From Peptococcaceae bacterium (GTDB lineage Bacteria > Bacillota > Desulfitobacteriia > Desulfitobacteriales > Syntrophobotulaceae): 64,000 nt of DNA. Below the pieces are notes generated by a model. It was not told the origin of the DNA and did no database searches. It saw only the letters and a program-made list of their open reading frames with translations. This document shows, piece after piece, positions 5,877 through 61,784 of this stretch. How positions within the stretch are numbered: the stretch's first letter is position 1; every line of letters begins with the position of its first letter. The translations under genes and the position numbers were made by a program. The stretch covers positions 1 through 64,000 of the forward strand of contig WRII01000006.1 in the NCBI GenBank assembly GCA_009782825.1, given 5' to 3'.

Positions 5877-5901
5877 GGTTGCTCCCTCGTTTTCTCCTAA
5901 T

Positions 5902-6015
5902 GCGGGCTTTGCCCGCAAGTGGTCAGTGATCAGTGGTTAGTGGTTAGTGGTTAGTGGTCAGTATTGGATTTTCTTGTTTTTTATTGACGCTTTGCGTCTG
6001 TAAGTTACTATAGGG
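5902..6015 (-). repeat. Leader repeat element, copy 1 (upstream of fliQ)
   Basis: Read on the minus strand the element runs: CCCCTATAGTAACTTA, hairpin GACGC-AAA-GCGTC, an A-rich spacer, an array of six heptamers (types TGACCAC, TAACCAC, TGATCAC), then hairpin GCGGGC-AAA-GCCCGC. It ends 25 nt before the fliQ start, and the sequence after the hairpin continues into the ribosome binding site. The same element occurs at 17308-17407 and 61668-61767, each time directly before a gene and facing it. This copy is 114 bp against 100 bp for the others; the difference is exactly two extra TAACCAC heptamers. The rest of the gap up to 6260 holds no gene that I can see. Confidence 0.85.
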
Positions 6016-17307: not shown

Positions 17308-17407
17308 GCCCTTAGTAACTTACAGACGCGAAGCGTCAACAAAAAACAAGAAAATCCAATACTGACCACTAACCACTGATCACTGACCACTTGCGGGCAA
17401 AGCCCGC
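17308..17407 (+). repeat. Leader repeat element, copy 2 (upstream of C39-like gene)
   Basis: A 100-bp copy of the element described at 5902-6015, now on the plus strand: CCCTTAGTAACTTA, hairpin GACGC-GAA-GCGTC, A-rich spacer, four heptamers (TGACCAC, TAACCAC, TGATCAC, TGACCAC) and hairpin GCGGGC-AAA-GCCCGC. It ends 20 nt before the TTG start of the next gene, with AGGAGGG in between. It therefore occupies the whole gap between thrB and that gene and would be transcribed into its leader. Confidence 0.85.
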
Positions 17408-17427
17408 ATGAACAGGAGGGACAACTG

Positions 17428-28794: not shown

Positions 28795-28813
28795 ACACCA
28801 TGTATACCCTAAA

Positions 28814-28859
28814 TATACCACTTTAATATGACTATCTATTGTCATATTAAAGTGGTATA
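28814..28859 (+). promoter_or_regulatory. Perfect inverted repeat, probable operator of the WYL regulator
   Basis: Two 19-bp arms (28814-28832 and 28841-28859) are exact inverted complements around an 8-nt centre. The inner part reads TATGAC-N8-GTCATA. It lies 19 bp upstream of the regulator start and between it and the divergent tRNA promoter. The same inner motif with the same spacing recurs before the GyrI-like gene (29797-29816), so it is probably the binding site of the regulator. Confidence 0.75.
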
Positions 28860-28878
28860 CTGAGCGTGGTGATAGAAC

Positions 28879-47305: not shown

Positions 47306-47332
47306 AAAAAAGGATGCCGAAGCATCCTTTTT
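47306..47332 (-). terminator. Rho-independent terminator of the ncRNA
   Basis: A stem of AAAAAGGATGC against GCATCCTTTTT around a TTCG loop (minus strand), followed by a T-run. It can work in both directions. Confidence 0.85.
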
Positions 47333-47521
47333 GTCCAGTCTGTCGTATGAGGTCTGGTTTTCTGACCCCGCACAAAGCAGGTGGGCACCTGGACGTGTCT
47401 TTCCACCTTCTTCCAAAGAGACCCTGTCTCTAGGGAAGCCTGATGTACTCAAAACATCACTTCAGTTCCCTGTCAAGAAATAGGATCAAAACCTAGATCA
47501 TCACACGAGCAGAACAGATTC
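47333..47521 (-). ncRNA. ssrS: Structured non-coding RNA, 6S RNA candidate
   Basis: The 314-bp gap between panB and the rnhB frames carries signs of an independent RNA on the minus strand: TATAAT at 47533-47528, about 190 nt without coding content, and a strong terminator at 47332-47306. The two ends pair over 11 bp: TCGTGTGA (47508-47501) with TCATACGA (47350-47343) extended by CTG/CAG across a one-base bulge. Inside, hairpins form from GGGAA with TTCCC flanking GTGATG/CATCA, from GAGAC-AGG-GTCTC and from GGTC/GACC. Length, closing stem and long internal stem fit 6S RNA of Bacillota. The 6S name is my inference; the structured RNA itself is well supported. Confidence 0.6.
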
Positions 47522-47584
47522 ATCAGTATTATAACACGAACTTCTCAAAAAATCTCTTGGTAAGCTATGGAATTTTTCTCTCGA

Positions 47585-61667: not shown

Positions 61668-61767
61668 TCCCTTAGTAACTTATGGGCGCGAAGCGTCAAC
61701 AAAAAACAAGAAAATCCAATATTGACCACTAACCACTGATCACTGACCACTTGCGGGCGCAGCCCGC
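61668..61767 (+). repeat. Leader repeat element, copy 3 (upstream of the helicase)
   Basis: A 100-bp copy: TCCCTTAGTAACTTA, hairpin GGCGC-GAA-GCGTC, spacer, four heptamers and hairpin GCGGGC-GCA-GCCCGC, ending 17 nt before the helicase ATG. In the first stem the usual A-T pair is replaced by G-T, which still pairs in RNA. After the hairpin, GTTAGGAGACAAC matches ATTAGGAGAAAAC after copy 1, so the conserved element extends into the ribosome binding site. Confidence 0.85.
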
Positions 61768-61784
61768 GTTAGGAGACAACAGCC

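Follow-up and report, generated by a model that had tools for sequence, protein, structure and literature searches.

A dispersed, probably mobile DNA element with TTAG borders, two unlike end hairpins and a heptamer array in Peptococcaceae

Introduction

Why should three genes in one stretch of a Peptococcaceae genome be preceded by nearly the same hairpin-bearing sequence, each time close to the start codon and each time facing the gene? The preliminary description of the 64,000-nt stretch of DNA analysed here (the window) offered two answers: a mobile regulatory leader that always faces its gene, or a non-autonomous element that targets start regions. In this study, we followed the sequence through its own genome, a congener and more distant genomes. 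We conclude, with a probability of roughly 0.7, that it is a non-autonomous, dispersed mobile element of ~97-101 bp, which inserts at TTAG and depends on an enzyme that acts in trans on its two end hairpins. The element combines a high copy number, sharp TTAG borders and element-free sites with asymmetric hairpin ends that lack terminal inverted repeats and with heptamer arrays of variable length and sequence; it probably moves as hairpin-bearing single-stranded DNA. The family is new as far as the searches in this analysis show.

Results and Discussion

Three copies in the window

The three near-identical copies reported earlier at 5902-6015 (minus strand), 17308-17407 (plus) and 61668-61767 (plus) are indeed present; their refined bounds are given in Table 1. 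The two plus-strand copies, aligned from 17309 and 61669, are 94% identical over 99 nt, and the minus-strand copy (5897-6011) shares 89-94% identity with the other two over arms of 79 nt; both values are far beyond chance. The constant layout also stands: a left tip AGTAACTTA, a 5-bp hairpin, an A-rich spacer, heptamers and a GCGGGC hairpin follow each other in that order. All three copies face the gene behind them, and the ribosome binding site lies outside the hairpin. The right end is followed after 15 nt by TTG 17428 in copy 1, after 20 nt by the fliQ ATG 5876 in copy 2 and after 12 nt by ATG 61785 in copy 3; the 17-25 nt given previously had been counted from the hairpin. Two of the three gene names were borne out by Pfam, namely FliQ (PF01313, E 7.7e-30) after copy 2 and a Ski2/Mtr4-like helicase with DEAD and DSHCT domains after copy 3. 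For the product of the gene after copy 1, which had been named C39-like, Pfam gave nothing at E 0.001, so that this name is not supported. The window also contains a 6S RNA detected by Rfam (47328-47523, minus strand) and, at 28806-28867 between a tRNA and the next gene, a 30-bp inverted repeat with a 2-nt gap and 87% complementarity.

Table 1. Element copies in the window and their parts; copies are bounded from TTAG to TTAG inclusive.
Feature	Position	Strand	Remarks
Element copy 1	17312..17412	+	left TTAG 17312-17315; degenerate right TTAG = TGAA 17409-17412
Hairpins, copy 1	within 17312..17412	+	left GACGC-GAA-GCGTC; right TGCGGGC-AAA-GCCCGCA; heptamers between
Heptamer array, copy 1	17361..17391	+	units of the form ACTNNNN
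Element copy 2	5897..6011	-	left ATAG, right TTAG; two extra heptamers; upstream of fliQ
Heptamer array, copy 2	5918..5962	-	
Element copy 3	61672..61772	+	right end GCGTTAG runs on into GAG; upstream of DEAD/DSHCT helicase gene
Heptamer array, copy 3	61723..61751	+	

Element architecture

The left end consists of TTAG and TNNCTTA, followed by two bases, a 5-bp hairpin (GACGC-GAA-GCGTC), AAYAAAAAACAAGAAAATCCAATAC and then 7-base units of the form ACTNNNN. The right end has the form TGCGGGC-NNA-GCCCGC(A/G) before TTAG, with the consensus CTTGCGGGCNNAGCCCGC(A/G)TTAG. Hairpins are thus subterminal at both ends, the left one being weak or absent in some subtypes (GGAATTCGTAACGTC), and CTT is conserved 5' of both. 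The ends are asymmetric and the heptamer array between them is exchangeable; it could represent either slippage-prone filler or a repeated putative protein-binding site. Terminal inverted repeats are not present (left TAACTTACAGACGC, right complement TGCGGGCTTTGCCC), which separates the element from MITEs of DDE transposons.

The right stem was surveyed with the core of the element, not the stem, as the anchor. A candidate right end of the expected form was found in 81 of 110 copies in the genome of the window (G000, a 3.0-Mb MAG) and in 78 of 108 copies in its congener Peptococcaceae bacterium Nt197P3bin79 (G002), and the stem is paired in nearly all of them. Pair 5 is TA instead of GC in 34 of the 78 congener copies, with both sides changed, which indicates that the right stem is kept through double compensatory change. 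Its loops are almost all NNA (AAA, GTA, GCA, GAA, AGA). The C-GNA-G loop is unusually stable in DNA, which fits a role of the hairpin as DNA without proving one. A single DNA strand of the element folds into just the two end hairpins, with z-scores of -3.7 and -4.5 in two window copies and -0.6 in the third. Outside the window, copies were analysed within stretches of flanking sequence, here numbered L. At L105:3969 (+), L166:3969 (-), L214:9903 (-) and L190:7288 (+), the right hairpin is swapped for another, sometimes longer, hairpin.

Borders and insertion at TTAG

Across 85 left and 91 right junctions, conservation extends through NTAG at the left border and TTAG at the right one and then drops at once to background; the first base of the left NTAG is T in 73% and A in 21%. 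The flanks contain no direct repeat longer than in shuffled pairings, and hence no long target duplication. Sites without the element were recovered as paralogues in one MAG or as distant orthologues (~72% DNA identity), not as strains of one species: the 136-bp left flank of the L091 copy is 98.5% identical in L099, where it continues with TTAG and other sequence, and its last 39 bp recur in the same manner in L121 and L163. On the other side, L164 has the right flank of one L127 copy immediately behind a TTAG. One TTAG is therefore found before insertion and two after it, and the data fit both a second TTAG carried by the element and one duplicated from the target. L091, L099, L121 and L163 also contain a second dispersed repeat that ends in ...GACAAGGAATAATGTCAAAGTTATTTAGTTACAGTCCC, in a shorter form in L121 and L163.

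Copy number and spread

The genome of the window contains ~115-120 copies, with the core at 103 places (at most 3 mismatches) and the right end at 120 (at most 1 mismatch). The congener has 261 cores and 208 right ends; its heptamers differ, and its right stem carries compensatory changes. Elsewhere in the class, one right end was found in G001 and none in the other 80 genomes. When 398 genomes of the phylum were searched with a strict left-end pattern, no further genome with the family emerged, and the one match elsewhere was unrelated. Based on these two surveys, the family is essentially restricted to one genus within the phylum. The mean identity of 49 equal-length copies is 93%, and 8 of 1176 pairs are identical, which points to recent spread.

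Two short strings also recur in these genomes. TTACAGTCCC, located between TTAG and (T)TA(G/A), occurs at 17 places in 641 kb of loci from the genome of the window (0.08 expected), e.g. in L119:212-240, L127, L161, L099 and L121, and in none of the fetched G001 and G002 loci. Circular permutation of the left tip TCCC-TTACAG yields this string, which could be a scar, a solo end or a separate micro-element. In the congener, the 25-base string TGATTTGGACTGGACGGAGTACTAG is repeated in L189, L204, L205, L206, L216 and L220, adjoining the element in one case.

Related ends in other phyla

Right ends with CTT before and RTTAG after them (at most 2 mismatches) are also found in more distant MAGs, at 56 places in Phycisphaeraceae ARS65, 73 in Pirellulaceae, 7 in Proteobacteria HyVt-111 and 4 in Clostridiales Gx485_bin32. 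In the first two, they come after heptamers of other sequence (ACTTTCG, ACTTCAC). GCGGGC-GCCCGC palindromes are common, and the similarity across phyla could reflect convergence of GC-rich palindromes with a GAA-type loop, which would leave only the genus-level family as real. The strict left-end search of the phylum and the only loosely similar left ends of the planctomycete elements agree with this; against it, one Phycisphaeraceae MAG has 16 exact copies of the 24-base right end, CTT and RTTAG included, with heptamers in front, and TTAGTNCCTTACAGG is found at the left end of the elements from HyVt-111 and Clostridiales as well. Convergence, which concerns the cross-phylum claim alone, is a serious though not a leading possibility. 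Judged by their ends, the HyVt-111 and Clostridiales elements are likely homologous to the family and the planctomycete elements possibly so, and either misbinning of MAGs or convergence may lie behind the cross-phylum right ends.

These elements might even belong to a class of mobile DNA that spans phyla, defined by shared ends (TTAG-NNN-CTTAC... and CTTG-hairpin-RTTAG), an exchangeable ACTNNNN array and a mover that is neither a recognised Y1 nor a DDE enzyme. Such a class, from which orphan heptamer repeats like TAACTGA of giant sulfur bacteria might also derive, is a speculative extension and rather unlikely as it stands. Plasmid and phage collections yielded plain heptamer arrays only, e.g. 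22 places on a Pseudoalteromonas plasmid, of which the one examined had neither hairpin nor TTAG borders, and the right end is absent from viral contigs. Larger forms were seen in two genomes. In G086, L336, L341 and L346 contain longer elements, in which two left ends inverted to each other (TTAGTACCTTACAGGCGC ... GCGCCTGTAAGGTACTAA) are followed by several GC-rich hairpins and, last, by the GCGGGC right end; in G085, an element of ~250 bp occurs in L350, L353 and L356, in which long internal hairpins lie between TTAGTACCTTGC and GGTTGCGGGC..GCCCGC.TTAG.

Orientation and distance to genes

Genes around the copies were called with a home-made hexamer model trained on the window, which makes the positions of starts and the calls of small genes approximate; the control consisted of the other TTAG sites between genes of these stretches (550 in the genome of the window, 612 in the congener). 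Relative to the gene at the 3' side, 55 copies face and 58 oppose it in the genome of the window (p=0.85), and 59 face and 49 oppose it in the congener (p=0.39). The orientation that the preliminary description called constant thus holds for three of three copies in the window and fails genome-wide. Three of three is compatible with luck at 55:58; the common orientation in the window is mostly luck and not the sign of a dedicated gene switch.

The position of the copies, in contrast, is not random and shows a preference for gene edges. An opposing gene ends on the 3' TTA of the element in 22 of 58 copies in the genome of the window (control 16/261, p=3e-9) and in 16 of 49 in the congener (control 23/277, p=2e-5). 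Compared with their orthologues, where these were found, such genes differ by no more than a few residues in where they end, so the stop codon is preserved upon insertion. In the genome of the window, 23 of 55 facing copies have the start at most 40 nt from their 3' end (control 35/289, p=1e-6), with TTAG being part of the Shine-Dalgarno sequence in 4 of these 23 and not in the other 19. The congener lacks this preference (8/59 versus 34/335, p=0.49), and copies that oppose a start at this distance of up to 40 nt show no enrichment in the genome of the window (8/52, p=0.2). The earlier text had named random orientation and random distance together as the mark of an ordinary dispersed repeat; the former was found and the latter was not. 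Its alternative of a non-autonomous element targeting start regions largely survives, as multi-copy insertion with defined ends and a defined target, with the preference for starts seen in one of the two genomes.

These distributions also bear on the proposal that the element is a regulatory leader, i.e. that it is transcribed and maintained for translational control of the gene behind it, exerted by an RNA hairpin or by heptamers that bind a protein. The excess of facing copies before starts favors this proposal, and heptamers elsewhere were interpreted similarly: those close before starts in Beggiatoaceae as post-transcriptional sites (PMC4679880), and those of Geobacter as regulatory elements (PMC2700814). 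However, the orientation of half of the copies is opposite to that of the next gene, and 22 end on a stop codon, a position that makes a leader function impossible for such opposing copies. The start preference is absent in the congener, the downstream genes are unrelated, and the ribosome binding site is not enclosed by the hairpin. RNA folds of the three leaders have z-scores of -3.0, -1.7 and -0.2, two of them hardly or not stabler than shuffles, and Rfam searches of the window and twelve related loci gave nothing relevant, with the element matching no family above gathering score. A mobile leader that always faces its gene therefore does not describe the nature of the element, with ratios of 55:58 and 59:49 and about a third of the opposing copies on stops. 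What survives is that near-start copies in the genome of the window face the start more often than they oppose it (23 versus 8, Fisher p=0.003). Of all the findings, a leader switch would explain only this excess; such a switch is unproven, unneeded for most copies and, as an account of the element, improbable.

Search for a mobilising enzyme

No mobilising enzyme was identified in the genomes that carry the element or related right ends. The four Y1 transposase genes in G000 have ends other than those of the element, and Y1 genes in G000, G015, G083 and G086 are without matching ends. G002, with its ~260 copies, has Y1 only as a 23-residue match, and G084 and G085 have none. A Y1 transposase was rejected as partner, as no Y1 gene examined has matching ends. 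The fetched loci held no larger copy with a gene between both ends, only damaged, solo or end-swapped copies. Reverse transcriptase was rejected as a universal partner, being absent from two of six genomes. An origin by reverse transcription, in which an enzyme supplied in trans would turn a structured RNA into DNA as in a SINE-like bacterial element, is very improbable, because fixed ends, a defined 3' hairpin, the lack of a transposase and reverse transcriptase genes in G000, G002 (partial), G084 and G085 are outweighed by their apparent absence from G083 and G086, which both carry related right ends, by copies that mostly have both complete ends and no 5' truncation, and by a precise TTAG on both sides that is untypical of target-primed insertion.

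Proposed mechanism

For the mobile element, we propose that an enzyme supplied in trans would recognise both end hairpins on one DNA strand, cut at TTAG at both ends and re-join the element 3' of TTAG in a new, probably single-stranded, target. The product would be [flank]TTAG-element-TTAG[flank], without a gene of the element's own. The terminal TTAG of the element reads CTAA on the opposite strand, so that a gene with CTAA at its stop codon gets its stop back after insertion there, and a Shine-Dalgarno sequence would stay intact if the element landed immediately in front of it. Insertions at both positions would be tolerated and so accumulate, and copies upstream of starts would join the 5' leader as a side effect. 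This shows how a TTAG-ending element can land on stop codons with the gene unharmed. A small, sharply bounded and recently active element that occurs more than 100 times in a genome also makes the search for the mobilising enzyme concrete.

Comparison with known systems

REP and REPIN sequences, which are moved by TnpA-REP (RAYT), resemble the element as high-copy intergenic hairpins, some of them in tandem, without a gene of their own (PMC3733652, PMC6006769). The element differs in lacking a GTAG/GTGG foot, its feet being CTTACA and CTT, and in having two unlike hairpins that always follow each other head to tail, separated by a spacer. A RAYT gene flanked by or linked to the repeat was not found.

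IS200/IS605-derived PATEs and IS608-type ends share with the element asymmetric ends and a subterminal hairpin at each end. IS608 inserts 3' of a fixed tetranucleotide that is kept in the left flank, without a longer target duplication (PMC5934647). The element likewise has a fixed tetranucleotide 5' of its left end, no longer target duplication and a short conserved word 5' of each hairpin foot; by this analogy, it may act like an IS608-type element. In contrast to TTAC/TCAA in IS608, it has TTAG at both ends, the guide code (TTAC-AAAG) has no obvious fit to TTAG and CTTA when compared by eye, and the heptamer array is internal to the element. Neither a linked nor a trans Y1 TnpA with the same ends was found in G000, G002 and G015 or in G083-G086, and for lack of a transposase with matching ends the element is not filed under IS200/IS605.

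The heptamers invite comparison with the TAACTGA direct repeats of Beggiatoaceae, Cyanobacteria and Bacteroidetes, as presented in the excerpted text of MacGregor 2015 (PMC4679880). Both are intergenic heptamer direct repeats with a patchy distribution across phyla, and the TAACTGA unit fits ACTNNNN. According to the same excerpt, TAACTGA repeats lie mostly close to start codons and face them, whereas the element is oriented randomly overall; their arrays mostly reach to 1 nt before the start, mostly without a ribosome binding site, and end hairpins or TTAG borders are not described in that text. The element was not counted among the TAACTGA repeats, given its other units, the hairpin before the start and its random orientation. 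In Geobacter metallireducens, heptanucleotide elements dispersed in 49 copies, each with four heptamers in tandem, were proposed to be regulatory (PMC2700814); their heptamer is another one, they also lie within genes, and the comparison with the element covers the heptamers. For heptamer repeats near start codons, hitherto read as regulatory networks, the element offers an explanation by mobile DNA.
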